From: a candidate division KSB1 bacterium
GTDB lineage: Bacteria; Zhuqueibacterota; JdFR-76; DREG01
DNA: 6,208 bases
Direction: 5' to 3'
Assembly (NCBI GenBank): GCA_022566355.1
Contig: JADFJB010000183.1
Coordinates: 1 to 6,208 of the forward strand
This document shows, piece by piece, positions 1 to 6,208 of this stretch. Position 1 is the first letter of the stretch; each line of letters starts with the position of its first letter. The notes beneath the pieces were generated by a model. The model saw nothing but the letters and a program-made list of their open reading frames with translations, searched no databases and had not been told where the DNA came from. The translations under genes were made by a program, and so were the position numbers.

Positions 1-2280
1 AACGGTATATTCATCCACTGGATTTTCTTCATTCTTGAAATTATCCGGGTACTGCTTGCCCACATGTTTGAGGGTTAGCGATGCATTGAAACCTTTGTTT
101 GAATAGTTTATCATGGCGTTTGCAAGAAAATCGGGGAATCCTGCGATCGGGTTGCCATTTAAAACTGTTGGGGAGCCATTGCCGGAAAATACCGTATATT
201 TCTTCAATTCATTATTACTAAGGGAAATATTTCCGCCGACTGTTATTTTTTCTGTCAGATTCATTCCACCATTCATTTCAATTCCCAAATGAAGCGTCCT
301 TTCCGCATTACCGGTAATGGGCTGGCCAAACCGATCGAGTTGACCTTTACTGATAATTTCATCTTTAAAATCCATGAAGTACAGGTTAACATCCGCAAAA
401 ATATTTTCATTCCGATAACCCATTCCAACCTCAAAATCGTTCAGCGATTCCGGCTTAACCAGCGGTTCATCAAAATTGAATGCACCGTTCGGAAAGCGTT
501 CGAACCGGGGAACGACCGCTCCCCAGCTTGCAGGAGTGCTGGCTTCGGCAGCATCGTACAGATTTTTTAAACGGGGATCCCGGCTGGTGCGGGAATAACT
601 GACAAATAGGTTCGTCCTGCTGTTGAGATGAACATTGAAGCCAATCCTTGGATTGAGAAAATTATAGACTTGCTCAAATTCAGTTCCGATAAAATTCTCG
701 TCGTAAAGTTTGTAACGAAGATGAGAAAACTGTAAATCGAAACTTCCATAGATTTTGTCATTAAATTTGTAACCACTGTGAATGTAAGGAGACAATATGT
801 CTTTTCCGCCTTTATATTCGTAGTAGCGCCGGCTGCCTATATAATTATGACCGCTAAATTCGCCGGAAACTGCAGGAGGCAATTCGGTCGAACCTTTTTG
901 AATGCGCCCCCAATGTAACGAGCGATGAATGCGGATTTCACTTCCCAGGACCACAGTCGCCTTTTTATGCTGCCAGGTTAGATTGGGCAGCCAACCGATC
1001 TGTTTATTATCTACATAGGCACGGATTAACAGATCATCGACATAAATGTTCTCCGGATCGCCTTTATCGGCAAAGCCAAATTCCGGTGTCAGGCGAAAAT
1101 AAGAAGCCGGCGCCCAGGAGCCGTCGTAATCGAAAAAGCCGTAGCCGCGAATGCCGAAAAGCGTATTGTTGAGTGTAAGATTTTCGTTGACCTGGTATTG
1201 ATGAAAAAATTCTGCGTGTGGTTGATTGAAATTCTCGATCTCATCGGGACGAACAATGGGGTTCTCTTTTCGGGATTCTTTATTATTGGCAGCATTTTTT
1301 GAAATACCAAAAAACACCAGGTGATCTGCAATCGGACCGCCGTAAACGTGCAGCCGCATGGTCGATCTCTTGCCAAATCGCGCCGCGCCAAAAAAATAGC
1401 TTTTAAAATTTACCCAGGATTGGTTCCGGTAACCGTCGGTTTTGATCTGTGAAACCCGGGCATTTAGAATGTATTGGTTTTTCAGGAGACCGCTGTTATA
1501 GGCAAGCGAGTATTTTTGTGTATCGTAACTTCCTGATCCGGCATAAAACGAAATTTTGCGTTCCGGTGAAAATCGTGTGGTGGTGATATTTACGGAACCG
1601 CCGATAGCCGGTGGTCCGTAAAAAGCGCTGCCGGCACCGCGCTGAACTTGTATGTCTTCAACATTGTCCAAAAAATTCGGGAAATCGATCCAATATACAT
1701 TGTGGTCTTCCGGATCGTTTTGTGGGATGCCGTTAATCATCACCGAGATTCGTCGTTGATCGAAACCACGGATAGAGAGATAGTTGTAGCCGATGCCGCT
1801 GCCGCCCTCGGAGTAAAAAGTGGTCGAGGGCAGTTGGCTTAGCAAAACCGGGATATCCTGGGTGTGATAGTTTTTTTCGATATCTTCCCGGGTTAAGGTA
1901 CTAAACGCTGCCGGCGTTTCGCCTTCTGTCGCCCGAATTGCCGTAACGACAACCTCATGTCCCGGCAGGATTACGGAAGTTAATGCAAAGTTTACTTCTA
2001 TTGTATTTTGATTTAAAGGTAGCGATCTTTGTTCGGTTCGATAACCGACAAAACTCACATCCAGGATATATTGGCCGAAGGTGAGGTTTGAAATTTCAAA
2101 TTTTCCATCTTCCCCGGATATGGTTCCCAGGCTAATGTTTTGCAAAGCTATGTTTGCCCCTTGTAGCGGCCGGCCATTTGCAATATCGGTTACAGTACCT
2201 GTAATCGTTCCTTTTTGGTTCTGTGCGGTTAGAAGACATGGCAATAAAAACAGTAAAAAAATGAATATGGATCTTCTCAT
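1..2280 (-). CDS. TonB-dependent outer-membrane receptor, probable thiamin/TPP-regulated uptake receptor (3' end beyond window)
   Basis: The minus-strand frame is open for 760 codons from ATG at 2280 to the window edge, so the last strands of the barrel are missing. Residues 1-20 are a signal peptide (MRRSIFIFLLFLLPCLLTAQ). Residues about 22-105 form a carboxypeptidase-regulatory-like beta-sandwich (GTITGTVTD...GRPLQGANI...FVGYR). This is followed by a TonB-box-like EVVVTA and a plug at about 126-235, with the hallmarks SIRGFDQRRISVMINGIPQ, NPEDHNVYWID-type and VQRGAGSAFYGPPAIGGSVN (NDPEDHNVYWID is what is actually read). The rest is a 22-strand-type barrel with aromatic-rich alternating segments, for example NLFVSYSRTSRDPRLKNLYD. 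A Shine-Dalgarno AAAGGA lies at 2290-2295, nine bases before the ATG. Such receptors import scarce ligands across the outer membrane using TonB/ExbBD energy. The TPP riboswitch in the leader makes thiamin or a thiamin derivative the likely ligand; that part is inference, since the protein itself does not reveal the substrate. No frameshift or internal stop is seen. Confidence 0.93.
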   Translation of the reverse strand, partial: MRRSIFIFLLFLLPCLLTAQNQKGTITGTVTDIANGRPLQGANIALQNISLGTISGEDGKFEISNLTFGQYILDVSFVGYRTEQRSLPLNQNTIEVNFALTSVILPGHEVVVTAIRATEGETPAAFSTLTREDIEKNYHTQDIPVLLSQLPSTTFYSEGGSGIGYNYLSIRGFDQRRISVMINGIPQNDPEDHNVYWIDFPNFLDNVEDIQVQRGAGSAFYGPPAIGGSVNITTTRFSPERKISFYAGSGSYDTQKYSLAYNSGLLKNQYILNARVSQIKTDGYRNQSWVNFKSYFFGAARFGKRSTMRLHVYGGPIADHLVFFGISKNAANNKESRKENPIVRPDEIENFNQPHAEFFHQYQVNENLTLNNTLFGIRGYGFFDYDGSWAPASYFRLTPEFGFADKGDPENIYVDDLLIRAYVDNKQIGWLPNLTWQHKKATVVLGSEIRIHRSLHWGRIQKGSTELPPAVSGEFSGHNYIGSRRYYEYKGGKDILSPYIHSGYKFNDKIYGSFDLQFSHLRYKLYDENFIGTEFEQVYNFLNPRIGFNVHLNSRTNLFVSYSRTSRDPRLKNLYDAAEASTPASWGAVVPRFERFPNGAFNFDEPLVKPESLNDFEVGMGYRNENIFADVNLYFMDFKDEIISKGQLDRFGQPITGNAERTLHLGIEMNGGMNLTEKITVGGNISLSNNELKKYTVFSGNGSPTVLNGNPIAGFPDFLANAMINYSNKGFNASLTLKHVGKQYPDNFKNEENPVDEYTV

Positions 2281-2361
2281 TTTAGGCTTTCCTTTCAATT
2301 TATGATTTTTTAAAAACCGACTTTCTTGGTGTTGCTATTCTTATTCTTTAAAATTATTTAG

Positions 2362-2378
2362 ACAGGATTAACAGGATT
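2362..2378. repeat. Short tandem repeat ACAGGATTA-ACAGGATT in the receptor leader
   Basis: ACAGGATT occurs twice with a 9-base period. It lies in the untranslated leader between the riboswitch terminator and the receptor start. No function is apparent; similar short words occur as dispersed intergenic repeats in many genomes of this kind (general recollection, not tested). Confidence 0.45.
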
Positions 2379-2391
2379 TTGAATAGCTTTC

Positions 2392-2407
2392 AACCGCTTT
2401 AGCGGTT
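2392..2407. repeat. Perfect 7-bp inverted repeat AACCGCT-TT-AGCGGTT
   Basis: AACCGCT (2392-2398) and AGCGGTT (2401-2407) are exact inverted copies around a 2-base centre. On the minus strand the repeat sits in the receptor mRNA downstream of the riboswitch terminator and has no U-run after it there. On the plus strand it is followed by TTT, but no plus-strand gene lies upstream, so a terminator role is unlikely. It may be a dispersed palindromic repeat. Confidence 0.5.
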
Positions 2408-2420
2408 TTTGACTTAAACT

Positions 2421-2453
2421 AAAAAAGCCACAAGACCGGGAGGGTTTTGTGGC
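2421..2453 (-). terminator. Intrinsic terminator of the TPP riboswitch
   Basis: On the minus strand GCCACAAAACC (2453-2443) pairs with GGTCTTGTGGC (2437-2427). This gives an 11-bp stem with one A-C mismatch and a 5-base CTCCC loop, followed directly by six T (2426-2421). It lies 30 bases downstream of the aptamer and about 140 bases before the receptor ATG, the position expected for a transcription-terminating expression platform. Confidence 0.87.
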
Positions 2454-2494
2454 ATTCAAATCAATACGGATTGATGTGCAAATTCAAAATCCCT
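2441..2494 (-). promoter_or_regulatory. Candidate antiterminator pairing between aptamer 3' end and terminator left arm
   Basis: On the minus strand AGGGATTTTG (2494-2485, including the conserved GGGA that closes the TPP aptamer) is complementary to CAAAACCCT (2449-2441, left arm and loop of the terminator): nine pairs with one bulged A. The two pairings are mutually exclusive. A TPP-bound aptamer would hold the GGGA, leaving the terminator free to form; without TPP the antiterminator would win. Between the two arms lies a small perfect hairpin, ATCAAT-CCGT-ATTGAT (2475-2460). The pairing is read from the sequence; the switching model is inference. Confidence 0.6.
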
Positions 2495-2569
2495 GCGCTG
2501 GTATTATCCGGATCAGGTTCGATGGGTGTACTCTCAGCCTTGCACTGGTGCAAAGCACCCCGAGTCGAA
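2483..2569 (-). promoter_or_regulatory. TPP (thiamin pyrophosphate) riboswitch aptamer, THI element
   Basis: The minus strand carries the conserved TPP aptamer blocks in order: ACTCGGGGTGC, a P3 hairpin (CTTTGCAC / GTGCAAGG), GGCTGAGAGTACACCC with the invariant CUGAGA (2537-2532), then GAACCTGATCCGGATAA and TACCAGCGCAGGGA. P2 is GGGGTG / CACCC. A short P1 of TTCGA (2569-2565) with TTGAA (2487-2483) is possible, with one G-U pair. The element binds TPP in the mRNA and in bacteria represses thiamin biosynthesis or transport genes. Here it is followed by an intrinsic terminator and the TonB-dependent receptor, so control is probably by transcription termination. The outer limits are approximate because P1 is weak. 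Confidence 0.96.
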
Positions 2570-2585
2570 ATCAAAGAACTTGGTA

Positions 2586-2614
2586 AATATAAGTTGAAAT
2601 TTGGCTGAATTCAA
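2586..2614 (-). promoter_or_regulatory. Sigma70-like promoter for the riboswitch-receptor transcript
   Basis: On the minus strand a -35 TTGAAT (2614-2609) and a -10 TATATT (2591-2586) are separated by exactly 17 bases. The predicted start near 2578-2579 is about ten bases ahead of the riboswitch, giving a leader of about 300 bases. Position and spacing are good; the boxes are a visual match only. Confidence 0.6.
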
Positions 2615-2675: not shown

Positions 2676-3653
2676 ATGAAAAAAGAAGAGCTGGATTTCG
2701 ACCTGGTAGATAAGCTTTATCAAAATCTCATTCAAACAAGCAAAATTGTCGGTCGCTTGTTTATTATTTTTTTTACTTTGATGCTGTTGCTTTCTGCCCT
2801 GGTATTCGAGCCTGAATTATTTCCAACCAATACTCCACCCGGACAATCGAGAATAGAAAGGCTTCCCGCCCAAGAGATAAATTTACAAGATACATCGAAA
2901 GTCGAGTCAAGTCCGGATAAATCAGGAGTTAAGCCTGAACCAATTATACCTTTATTTGGCTTTAAAATCAATAGCAGTAAAATGCTGAAATTTAGTCCTT
3001 TGATTTTGGCAGCGATCTACTTAATGCTTGCAACCTATTTGATTTACCTGGATTTCTTAAAAAAAGAGTATTTTGAAACCTACGAAGATCTTTATGCGCA
3101 AGCAGAGGGAGAGGGTGAAAGCTCCTTATTGTATAAAATTCGTTTACCCAATTTACACTATATTTTAACAGATTTGTCCAGTCAACATTCATCAAAGTTT
3201 GTCCAGTTAATCTATCAGACAGCAAATATAATTAAATCTTTTGTCCTTTATGTATTACCTATGGTCGTCTTGATAATATTACTTGGTGAAGGTTTTCAAG
3301 AGTCTACATCAAACATATTAAACGGTTTATCCTGGGGTGGTCTTATCTTGGTAATAGTTGGCACTGCAGCACTCACAAGAGAATGGTTTATCGACGCCAA
3401 GGAAGTTATGAAGGATATTCTAATAGGTGTGCGAACAAAAACAATAAAAAGGGTTGAAGCTGTTCGTTACGCAAGAGCCTTAATTACCATATTGGCTGTT
3501 TCACTTACTTTAGCCGGGGGTTCGTTTGCAGTTAATCAATTTCTTAAGTCTACTGATTATCTTTCCTTTGAAAAGGCAAAAGCAATGGTAATAGAGAGGG
3601 ACTTTTATCATATGTTTTGGAATGAGAAAGGGGGGAATAAAACATCAATATGA
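2676..3653 (+). CDS. Multi-pass membrane protein, N-terminal part of a frameshifted membrane-anchored DUF1566 protein
   Basis: I do not recognise a named family for this 325-residue protein. It has five likely membrane helices at about 25-44, 106-126, 188-204, 218-234 and 268-286. A polar, Pro/Ser-rich loop of some 60 residues lies between the first two, and an acidic soluble segment (about 127-185, with AEGEGES) between the second and third. The last residues from EKGG onward come from a frame change. A run of six G (3630-3635) holds one base too many, and removing it continues the protein as EKGGIKHQYELKTINDDTIII into the DUF1566 domain that follows. The natural protein was therefore probably about 446 residues: membrane anchor plus C-terminal lectin-like domain. 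The start is ATG at 2676 with only a weak AAAGAAG purine tract (2666-2672) three bases before it. It is divergent from the receptor and shares its upstream region. Confidence 0.75.
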   Translation: MKKEELDFDLVDKLYQNLIQTSKIVGRLFIIFFTLMLLLSALVFEPELFPTNTPPGQSRIERLPAQEINLQDTSKVESSPDKSGVKPEPIIPLFGFKINSSKMLKFSPLILAAIYLMLATYLIYLDFLKKEYFETYEDLYAQAEGEGESSLLYKIRLPNLHYILTDLSSQHSSKFVQLIYQTANIIKSFVLYVLPMVVLIILLGEGFQESTSNILNGLSWGGLILVIVGTAALTREWFIDAKEVMKDILIGVRTKTIKRVEAVRYARALITILAVSLTLAGGSFAVNQFLKSTDYLSFEKAKAMVIERDFYHMFWNEKGGNKTSI

Positions 3654-4018
3654 ACTCAAAACCATAAATGATGATACAATAATTATTGACTCTGCTACAA
3701 ACCTCACCTGGCAAAAGGCAGGCACAGGAAGGTTGAGTTATGAAAAGGCAGAAGCGTATATTCAAAAATTACGCCGTGATAAATTGTGCCGATTTTAGTG
3801 ATTGGCGTTTGCCGACATTGGCAGAAGCGATGACGCTTATGGAGCCAGTAAAGAAAAATGAGGGTCTATTTATTGATTCAATTTTTGATCCACAACAGAG
3901 ATGGATTTGGACTTCGGATAAACAAAGCGCCTCGGGTGCATGGGTAGTCGATTTCAATTTTGGCGGCTGCACCAACTACCCTCTCGACGACGGGAACGAC
4001 GTTCGAGCGGTTCGCTGA
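3636..4018 (+). pseudogene. DUF1566 (Lcl/C-type-lectin-like) domain, displaced by two +1 frameshifts from the upstream membrane protein
   Basis: After the G6 run, the next frame reads KHQYELKTINDDTIIIDSATNLTWQKAG...SYEKAEAYIQKLRRDK. It then hits TAG at 3796, while the third frame carries FSDWRLPTLAEAMTLMEP...LFIDSIFDPQQRWIWTSDK and ends VRAVR-stop at 4016-4018. Deleting a single G near 3786 (TTGTGCC to TTTGCC) joins them as DKFADFSDWRLPT, exactly the family's layout. The IDxATxLxW, DWRLPT and RWIWT...W motifs are typical of DUF1566, a C-type-lectin-like fold used for binding. The ATG at 3740 is an internal methionine, not a start. Function is unknown; in other bacteria this fold occurs at the C-terminus of surface or membrane proteins and as a target of diversity-generating retroelements. 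Either decay or sequencing error could explain the two shifts. Confidence 0.8.
3953..4018 (+). other. Candidate DGR-like variable region at the end of the DUF1566 domain
   Basis: From 3953 to 4000, 12 of 16 codons end in C (TTC, GGC, GGC, TGC, ACC, AAC, TAC, CTC, GAC, GAC, AAC, GAC). In the 42 codons from 3800 to 3925 of the same domain none does. The segment ends in VRAVR followed by TGA. Such NNC-rich stretches arise when a template repeat full of AAC codons is copied with adenine mutagenesis. The position, at the extreme C-terminus of a lectin-like fold, is also the usual one. No template repeat, reverse transcriptase or accessory protein is present in this window, so this is a hypothesis. 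Confidence 0.4.
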
Positions 4019-4120: not shown

Positions 4121-4663
4121 TCAAATCTTAATAAAAATCTTCCTGCGATACATCCAGCTTAAAATTGCCCACCATAAAACAATATTCAAGATGGCGTATA
4201 AAAGCGAGCCCAACCAATCGCCAAAAATTGGCGTAACCAGGTTGTTGTAGAACATTCCTTTCAGTGAAACCTGGCTGCCGTCCGGGAGAGTAAATTTCCA
4301 CCAATAGAGATTCTTGGCCAGAAAGGAGGAGCCGGCAAAAGCAAAGATGGAATTCATACCAAACACCATAAATATTTTGCTGCCTTTTTGCTTGCCTTTA
4401 CTATCGAGCCACCAATAACTAGCAGCCAGGCAGAGCAGGGCTAATCCGGCTGTATAAACCGAATAGCTGCTGGTCCACAGCGCTTTGTTGAGGGGCATCC
4501 ATTCCTGCCAGAATAGGGTGATGAAGATAGCAATGGTTCCGGCAATGAACAAACCGTTGGTCTTCTCCAAAGGCTGGCGATCGGAACGCAGCCAATCCCC
4601 GGCAAAATAACCGAACAATACGGTTGCAATGGCCGGTAGGGTACTGACAATCCCTTCAGGATC
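4121..4663 (-). pseudogene. C-terminal fragment of a heparan-alpha-glucosaminide N-acetyltransferase-like membrane acyltransferase (COG4299/DUF5009)
   Basis: Reading leftward, about 180 residues resemble the second half of this family: DPEGIVSTLPAIATVLFGYF, then LNKALWTSSYSVYTAGLALL, YWWLD, and FMVFGMNSIFAFAGSSFLAK, ending at TGA (4123-4121). At least four hydrophobic helices remain (GLFIAGTIAIFITLFW, VYTAGLALLCLAASYWWL, FMVFGMNSIFAFAGSSFLA, GSLLYAILNIVLWWAILSW). Full-length relatives are near 370-390 residues, so roughly the first 200, with the catalytic region, are absent. Upstream of DPEG the frame loses family character and meets a stop at 4696-4694. No ATG lies in the fragment; TTG at 4618 is internal. 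The missing half is not found beyond the insertion sequence either, so a deletion or rearrangement, not just insertion, removed it. Relatives transfer acetyl groups from acetyl-CoA to amino sugars across a membrane. Confidence 0.8.
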
Positions 4664-4696
4664 GCGATGACACGGAAGTTTCTTGGAAGGAGTTTA

Positions 4697-4757
4697 CGAC
4701 GAGAAATCTTTTAATCTATACAAAAAATGACTTGTTGGGAGACAAGATTTCTCCTCG
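4697..4757. repeat. Palindromic intergenic repeat beside the IS
   Basis: CGACGAGAAATCTT (4697-4710) is repeated inverted as AAGATTTCTCCTCG (4744-4757), 13 of 14 bases, with a 33-base loop. The word GGAGTTTA appears twice in direct orientation (4689-4696 and 4760-4767), once on each side. This looks like a dispersed palindromic repeat. It lies between the broken acyltransferase and the IS and could be either the IS target or part of an IS-encoded structured RNA. Confidence 0.55.
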
Positions 4758-4763
4758 CGGAGT

Positions 4764-4775
4764 TTATCCTGAGAC
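4764..4775 (+). repeat. Left copy of 12-bp direct repeat TTATCCTGAGAC
   Basis: Identical to 6018-6029 on the other side of the transposase. The bases outside the 12 differ. It is a candidate shared core/boundary of the IS110 element. Confidence 0.55.
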
Positions 4776-4869: not shown

Positions 4870-5941
4870 ATGCAGCAAATTAATCAAAAGGAATTTAAGG
4901 ATCAAGAGTTTTATATTGGTATGGATGTGCATAAGAAGAATTGGGTTATCACGCTTCGGAATAACAACATGGAATTAAAGACTTTTAGCATGGATCCATC
5001 TCCAGAATTATTGTATAAGCATTTGCACTGCAATTACCCTGGTGGTAGGTACATCAGTGCCTATGAGGCTGGTTTCTGTGGCTTCTGGATTCATCGTAGT
5101 CTCGAGAGCCTGGGCATAAAGAATTTGGTTATTCACGCAGCTGATGTAGCCACCACAAACAAAGAGAGGACAAACAAAACCGATAAAGTGGATTCACGCA
5201 AGATAGCACGAGAGTTAGAGAACAAATCTCTAAACAGTATTTATATACCTGATGAGCTGCACCAACAACTACGTTCACTCTGTCGATTGCGTGGTCAATC
5301 AGTTGTGAATCAGACACGTGTCAAAAACCGTATTAAAGGACATTTACACACCTATGGTATCCCCCATACCATGTCAAGTGAAAATGCCGCATTGGTCAGG
5401 TAATTTCATCAACTGGTTGCTGTCACTAGAATTTTCTCAAGCATGTGGTAAGGATTATCTGATATTTTGCCTTGAAGAGTTGCAACAACATCGGCAAAGG
5501 ATAGTGGATATTACGCGTATTTTACGAAGCCATCTCAAAAGTCACAGCTTATATGAACCGTTTGTATTTTTACGCTCAATACCAGGTATTGGCCTTGTCG
5601 TCGCACTTTCATTTTATACTGAAATTATGGACATCAATCGATTTCGAATATTCGATAAATTAGCCTCTTTTGTTGGGCTGGTTCCGTCAGTTCATGGTAG
5701 CGGAGATAAAACCATCGATCAGGGATTGACAAAAAGACGAAATCGCTATTTGCGCCATCTCATAGTTGAAGCTGCCTGGATTGCCGTTAGAAAGGATCCG
5801 GCTTTACTACATGCATTTAATCAATTAACACGACGTATGAAGAAACAAGATGCCATTATTCGCATTGCCAAAAAACTTCTTCGACGTATCCGATACGTCT
5901 GGAAAAATCAACCGCCTTATGTACTAGCAGTCGTTGAATAA
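4870..5941 (+). pseudogene. IS110-family transposase (DEDD/serine recombinase), split by one frameshift
   Basis: The first frame (4870-5403) holds the RuvC-like DEDD domain: YIGMDVHKK (D19), AYEAGF (E66) and KTDKVDSRKIA (D105, D108), then a coiled-coil region (LRSLCRLRGQSVVNQTRVKN). The second frame (usable from about 5366 to 5941) holds the IS116/IS110/IS902 domain: LRSIPGIGLVVALSF, FVGLVPSVHGSGDK (S of GSGDK, repaired residue about 277, is the likely nucleophilic serine), and TKRRNRYLRHLIVEAAW. Removing one C from the five at 5361-5365 reads GIPIPCQVKMPHWSGNFINW, a normal family sequence, and gives a 356-residue protein of usual length. All catalytic residues are kept, so the damage looks recent or is a sequencing error. 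The start is fixed by AAGGAG five bases before ATG 4870. Confidence 0.92.
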
Positions 5942-6041: not shown

Positions 6042-6155
6042 TTTTATATCATTTAATTCTTGTCTTGCAGCTCCCTCATCAGAAAAGGGATGTCTGTTTA
6101 TAACAGCGTGTTTGTATTTTGTTTTGTTCTGTTATTTGTTCTTTAAATTAATCTA

Positions 6156-6206
6156 ATTTTTTTTGAATCACTTCCTTTTTTAGATGAGAAGTAATTCAAA
6201 AAAAAT
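6156..6206. repeat. 19-bp inverted repeat with T8/A8 outer arms; no gene in 6042-6208
   Basis: The left arm (6156-6174: A, eight T, then GAATCACTTC) and the right arm (6188-6206: GAAGTAATTC, eight A, then T) match inverted at 18 of 19 positions around a 13-base loop. The order T-run, stem, A-run is opposite to a rho-independent terminator on both strands, so a dispersed palindromic repeat or small transposon end is more likely. The rest of 6042-6208 is T-rich and holds only minor hairpins, such as CTGTT-TAT-AACAG at 6094-6106 and TCCCT/AGGGA at 6072-6090. I see no credible coding sequence. Confidence 0.55.
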
Positions 6207-6208
6207 CT

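Follow-up and report, generated by a model that had tools for sequence, protein, structure and literature searches.

A TPP riboswitch followed by a TonB-dependent receptor (TBDR), a sodium:solute symporter (SSS) and a thiamin pyrophosphokinase (TPK) is an arrangement already known from Caldithrix abyssi, in which the riboswitch lies 163 nt upstream of the TBDR and the SSS and TPK genes belong to the same locus, Cabys_3975-3977 (PMC5317091). The C. abyssi receptor was called highly similar to BT2390 of B. thetaiotaomicron (PMC5317091). The latter receptor, also named OMthi, has genetic support: its loss in a biosynthesis-minus strain raised the EC50 for thiamin from 2.8 to 15.8 nM (PMC5613172). 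Thiamin had little effect on transcripts of the B. thetaiotaomicron transporter genes that lie beside TPP riboswitches (PMC5613172). A symporter of the SSS family, ThiV, has been listed among thiamin transporters (PMC6593275), and the ThiV protein of SAR11 is likely a carrier of the pyrimidine precursor HMP in HMP auxotrophs (PMC11452348). The latter paper also gives substrate-site residues for HMP/thiamin symporters. Our literature search found nothing that joined thiamin, TonB and KSB1.

The locus described here belongs to a bacterium of the Calditrichota/KSB1 assemblage and was analysed as one stretch of 6208 bases, referred to below as the window, which is the whole of a contig (C183). We read its receptor as a riboswitch-controlled, TonB-energised outer-membrane importer of vitamin B1, most likely of thiamin, in a thiamin auxotroph, and we give this reading as a whole a probability of about 0.85. 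By description, the system resembles that of C. abyssi in having a predicted thiamin TBDR whose leader contains a TPP riboswitch, an incomplete thiamin pathway, and both SSS and TPK. Whereas the three C. abyssi genes share one locus, the receptor of the source genome stands alone, with TPK and SSS on two other contigs (C38 and C39, respectively) and no riboswitch on either. The system also resembles, again by description, OMthi/PnuT/Tnr3 of B. thetaiotaomicron, with which it shares a TPP-riboswitch-linked TBDR assigned to thiamin, a split operon and a TPK-type enzyme (PMC5613172). The partner in B. thetaiotaomicron is PnuT, whereas no PnuT scored above the cut-off in the source genome and SSS would fill that position; B. 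thetaiotaomicron is, in addition, able to synthesize thiamin, unlike the apparent auxotroph considered here. The likeness to SAR11 ThiV, by description, lies in an SSS-family symporter tied to thiamin metabolism and to a TPP riboswitch (PMC11452348). Unlike ThiV, with its link to HMP, the SSS protein of our system accompanies TPK without ThiE, which points to thiamin. What the present analysis adds to these systems is a receptor-riboswitch association in 77 of 77 loci, the apparent replacement of PnuT by SSS in the assemblage, the mutual exclusion of receptor and ThiE, and the retention of the riboswitch with the receptor alone in the source genome.

TPP aptamer and candidate expression platform in the receptor leader

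The receptor gene and its leader lie on the minus strand of the window and comprise the following features.

1-2280, minus strand: TBDR gene, ATG at 2280, 760 amino acids in the window, open reading frame running off position 1
2421-2426, minus strand: U-run of the terminator (UUUUUU), directly after the hairpin
2427-2453, minus strand: intrinsic terminator hairpin GCCACAAAACCCTCCCGGTCTTGTGGC, -13.0 kcal/mol by folding
2473-2572, minus strand: TPP riboswitch aptamer (RF00059), full-length match of 62.1 bits, with covariation
2485-2495, minus strand: candidate antiterminator strand CAGGGATTTTG at the 3' end of the aptamer, complementary to the 5' arm of the terminator with one bulge
2586-2614, minus strand: possible promoter TTGAAT-17-TATATT from a consensus scan, at a plausible position

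The original prediction had placed a TPP aptamer with all conserved blocks in the receptor leader, on the minus strand at 2480-2575. Scanning of the window with Infernal (cmscan) bore out the aptamer, with a match to RF00059 at 2572-2473 that exceeded the gathering score of 54.3 bits (E 8.5e-11) and covered model positions 1-105; RF00059 was the only Rfam family above threshold in the window, and the receptor ATG is located 193 nt downstream of the match. The loop blocks were found to be intact; the inner pairs of P1 are partly non-canonical. When 22 aptamers from the source genome and related genomes were aligned, 51 helix cells had changed on both sides, compared with 14.6 in shuffles, and 97.5% of cells were paired. 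A search of the whole 4.62-Mb assembly, which is 98.5% complete, returned the window aptamer as its sole TPP riboswitch.

The terminator was detected by energy-based folding with shuffles. A simple consensus scan for terminators did not report it, because the hairpin contains an internal mismatch and a long loop. Among related leaders, 18 of 20 had a terminator no more than 100 nt from the aptamer, compared with 0.83 expected from dinucleotide shuffles. Given this position of a terminator after the aptamer, the best reading of the leader is likely an OFF switch that acts through transcription termination. At a high cytoplasmic concentration of TPP, the nascent leader would bind TPP, the hairpin at 2453-2427 would form, and transcription would stop before the receptor gene; at a low concentration, the 3' strand of the aptamer would instead pair with the 5' arm of the terminator and the receptor would be made. 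The predicted duplex between the antiterminator strand and the terminator arm is weak in the window (-9.1 kcal/mol, p 0.067 versus shuffles) and stronger in most relatives, with a mean of -17.3 kcal/mol for 16 leaders and with cognate pairs exceeding swapped pairs (p 0.045). Since the transporter transcripts of B. thetaiotaomicron responded little to thiamin, regulation at the present locus may, by analogy, also be weak. The promoter scan found one consensus compared with 1.3 expected, which is not above chance.

The receptor leader also contains a perfect palindrome, CAACCGCTTTAGCGGTTT, at positions 2391-2408 of the window. It has the same 7-nn-7 layout as an 18-nt REP-like motif of C. abyssi, nAACCGTTnnAACGGTTn (PMC5317091), from which it differs by one paired change, and no second exact copy was present within the 66.6 kb of the source genome examined.

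Receptor protein, its orthologs and thiamin gene content

The open reading frame of the receptor is cut off because the window is an entire contig. The right end of another contig, C117, overlaps the left end of the window over 234 bases at 97% identity, the two contigs meeting at their ends, and C117 extends the receptor frame to a stop at position 13589, thereby supplying the COOH-terminus. The 3% mismatch is compatible with strain variation in a metagenome assembly, with an incomplete second receptor copy being a possible alternative. Beyond the receptor stop, C117 encodes a tetratricopeptide-like protein and then other genes without a link to thiamin; on this side, where the original prediction had pointed to PnuT or a kinase as possible operon partners, neither adjoins the receptor.

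The receptor comprises a carboxypeptidase-regulatory-like domain, a Plug domain (PF07715, E 1e-19) and a beta-barrel (PF00593, E 2.8e-19). A structure model obtained with AlphaFold2 (mean pLDDT of 82.8) resembled known TBDR structures, the best being PqqU/YncD, FecA and FhuA, with PqqU bound to PQQ as the top match (TM 0.65/0.74, 16% identity). The best sequence match in PDB was BtuB, for the plug region only. Both PqqU (YncD) and BtuB of E. coli are TBDRs for cofactors, and the resemblance is one of fold; their ligands differ, and their identity to the window receptor is low. The match of the predicted model supports a TBDR fold and says nothing about the ligand, and the receptor, judged by its sequence on its own, names none. 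A TPP aptamer senses TPP, so the aptamer alone does not name the ligand either.

We therefore considered the orthologs of the receptor together with the genes around them. Orthologous loci were obtained by scanning the GTDB genome collection, and the best 80 were taken; their titles included KSB1, Calditrichota/Calditrichaeota, Ignavibacteria, Bacteroidetes, Latescibacteria, Gemmatimonadetes, Neomarinimicrobiota and Kryptonia-like entries. A covariance model built from the 22 related aptamers matched 77 of these 80 loci, and the three loci without a match (L150, L161 and L181) had no more than 74 nt of DNA upstream. Among the best 80 loci, all those that extend 75 nt or more upstream, 77 of 77, thus carry the aptamer, and the association of receptor and riboswitch is complete wherever it is visible. 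Orthologs tied to another ligand and lacking a TPP riboswitch, which the original prediction had named as evidence against itself, did not appear among these 77. One Neomarinimicrobiota contig (L189) carries two tandem TPP aptamers before the receptor, at 1167-1263 and 1385-1484, and one Caldithrix contig (L156) carries two that are 4 kb apart, at 700-798 and 4918-5015.

Co-occurrence was examined across 79 genomes, all from the phylum of the source genome, with the receptor called at E <= 1e-60. The receptor was encoded in 39 of these genomes and was found across 24 genera; 38 of the 39 contained a TPP riboswitch, and in 37 the aptamer was seen upstream of the receptor. In one genome (G074), the riboswitch and the receptor match lie on separate contigs, and in another (G061) the receptor begins at a contig edge. 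The spacing between aptamer and receptor was mostly 75-341 nt, and about 1.2-1.5 kb in three cases with thiL in between. An intervening thiL of this kind is seen in loci L077, L078 and L082.

For 79 of the best 80 loci, neighbouring genes were analysed. TPK adjoins the receptor in 53 loci and SSS in 41, with the typical operon of relatives being TPP riboswitch-TBDR-TPK-SSS. The identity of TPK in relatives was confirmed with TIGR01378 (154 bits versus a cut-off of 76.4), whereas SSS matched the superfamily model only, under its cut-off, and reached no named transporter family. Genomes with the receptor also differed from those without it in the presence of SSS (36/39 versus 2/40, Fisher p 1.5e-16) and TPK (31/39 versus 1/40, p 1.9e-13), and the converse was apparent for ThiE, which was mutually exclusive with the receptor (0/39 versus 32/40, p 7e-15), and for ThiC (1/39 versus 23/40, p 4.5e-8); these p-values treat related genomes as independent and so overstate independence. 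The count for ThiE leaves out one weak partial match (G004, 35.9 bits, positions 102-177 only), which we took for another TIM barrel. The exclusion of receptor and ThiE provides a simple marker of thiamin dependence for metagenome-assembled genomes.

An inner-membrane partner such as PnuT had also been suggested. The PnuC/PnuT family (PF04973) reached its cut-off in only one of 79 relatives, and its best score in the source genome, 23 bits, was under the cut-off. PnuT was ruled out as the partner because nearly all relatives lack PF04973; the suggestion of a partner stands in another form, with the SSS symporter, together with TPK, appearing to fill this role in relatives. Where PnuT is lacking, the symporter is thus a clear candidate for the carrier of thiamin across the inner membrane.

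The source genome encodes TPK at C38:25499-26092 on the minus strand (150.6 bits versus the cut-off of 76.4) and SSS at C39:275-1612, also on the minus strand. Neither gene has a TPP riboswitch, and they are unlinked to each other and to the receptor. No thiamin salvage gene adjoins the receptor in the source genome (on C117), whereas such genes do so in relatives. Neither ThiC nor ThiE was detected in the draft assembly, and the ThiL family gave two matches, none listed above the cut-off (best 84.1 versus 184.15 bits). The gene content of this draft genome is apparently that of a thiamin auxotroph that uses TPK to phosphorylate the thiamin it imports.

Predicted ligand and route of uptake

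TPK acts on intact thiamin, and the use of HMP needs ThiE to join the two moieties. Given that TPK is present and that ThiE and ThiC were not detected in the source genome, intact thiamin is favoured over the precursor HMP as the ligand. An importer of thiamin or of a precursor had been predicted initially; gene content supports this prediction and narrows it towards intact thiamin. After passage through the receptor, periplasmic thiamin would probably be carried inward by the SSS-family symporter, and TPK would convert it to TPP. Since TPK and SSS are encoded elsewhere and have no riboswitch, only the outer-membrane step appears to be under the control of TPP in the source genome. Import of thiamin would put a predicted ligand on a receptor whose sequence gives none, and it predicts thiamin auxotrophy for an uncultured lineage.

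Import of thiamin phosphates (TMP or TPP) or of a mixture of vitamers seems unlikely for the window receptor. Such import would be in keeping with the position of thiL between aptamer and receptor in three relatives (G005, G006 and G065) and with the five receptor-bearing genomes that have ThiL and neither TPK nor ThiE, a gene content that would fit the use of TMP. The source genome, however, contains TPK and no ThiL match above the cut-off, which leaves TMP without an obvious use, and the receptors of relatives with a thiL operon are only 37-41% identical to the window receptor. The eight receptor-bearing genomes without TPK, which include these five, may use thiamin monophosphate or another route. 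We consider it doubtful that two broader proposals hold together, namely that thiamin usually crosses the inner membrane in the assemblage by way of an SSS symporter that is distinct from the HMP carrier ThiV and replaces PnuT, and that receptors of the thiL sub-group import thiamin monophosphate. If so, thiamin monophosphate would be a new TBDR ligand, in a sub-group with thiL in place of TPK.

It is very improbable that the receptor imports HMP, alone or with thiazole, for completion to TPP inside the cell. The SAR11 symporter ThiV, a likely HMP carrier of the SSS family, is also located behind a TPP riboswitch (PMC11452348), but this route requires ThiE, which was found in none of the 39 receptor-bearing genomes, the source among them, and TPK, with its action on intact thiamin, is present in the source genome and adjoins the receptor in relatives. 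An unrelated ligand such as a siderophore or cobalamin, with the riboswitch being incidental or captured from a lost neighbour, is scarcely credible: although the receptor sequence names no ligand and general family models for siderophore and B12 receptors matched it, all far under their cut-offs, the 77/77 aptamer association across several phyla, the co-occurrence with TPK and the mutual exclusion with ThiE and ThiC argue against it.

Other elements of the window

The gene next to the receptor is divergent, as originally noted, and encodes at 2676-3653 (plus strand) a membrane protein without a known family. A DUF1566-like Lcl_C domain follows it at 3740-4018 in different frames, and the region 2676-4018 looks like a single gene with frameshifts near a G-run at about 3630 and near 3780. 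Positions 4121-4665 encode the COOH-terminal region (NF046061 positions 218-369) of a NagX-like transmembrane acyltransferase, the gene for which is apparently cut off near a repeat and an IS element. The repeat, at 4700-4773, has an imperfect inverted repeat with arms at 4697-4710 and 4744-4757 and is REP- or MITE-like; about 20 places in the genome match it at 79-100%, over part or all of its length. An IS110-family transposase spans 4870-5941 in two overlapping frames (4870-5403 and 5318-5941) and is apparently frameshifted.

C39, the contig with the SSS gene, begins with 75 bases that are identical to window positions 6074-6148, so an IS end appears to be located immediately downstream of that gene. 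We rejected C39 as a continuation of the receptor operon, because SSS is read towards the contig start, where the IS-end sequence lies, and because the upstream side of SSS runs into another gene region. The last 127 bases of the window (6082-6208) show full identity with the end of contig C132, probably the rightward continuation of the window.
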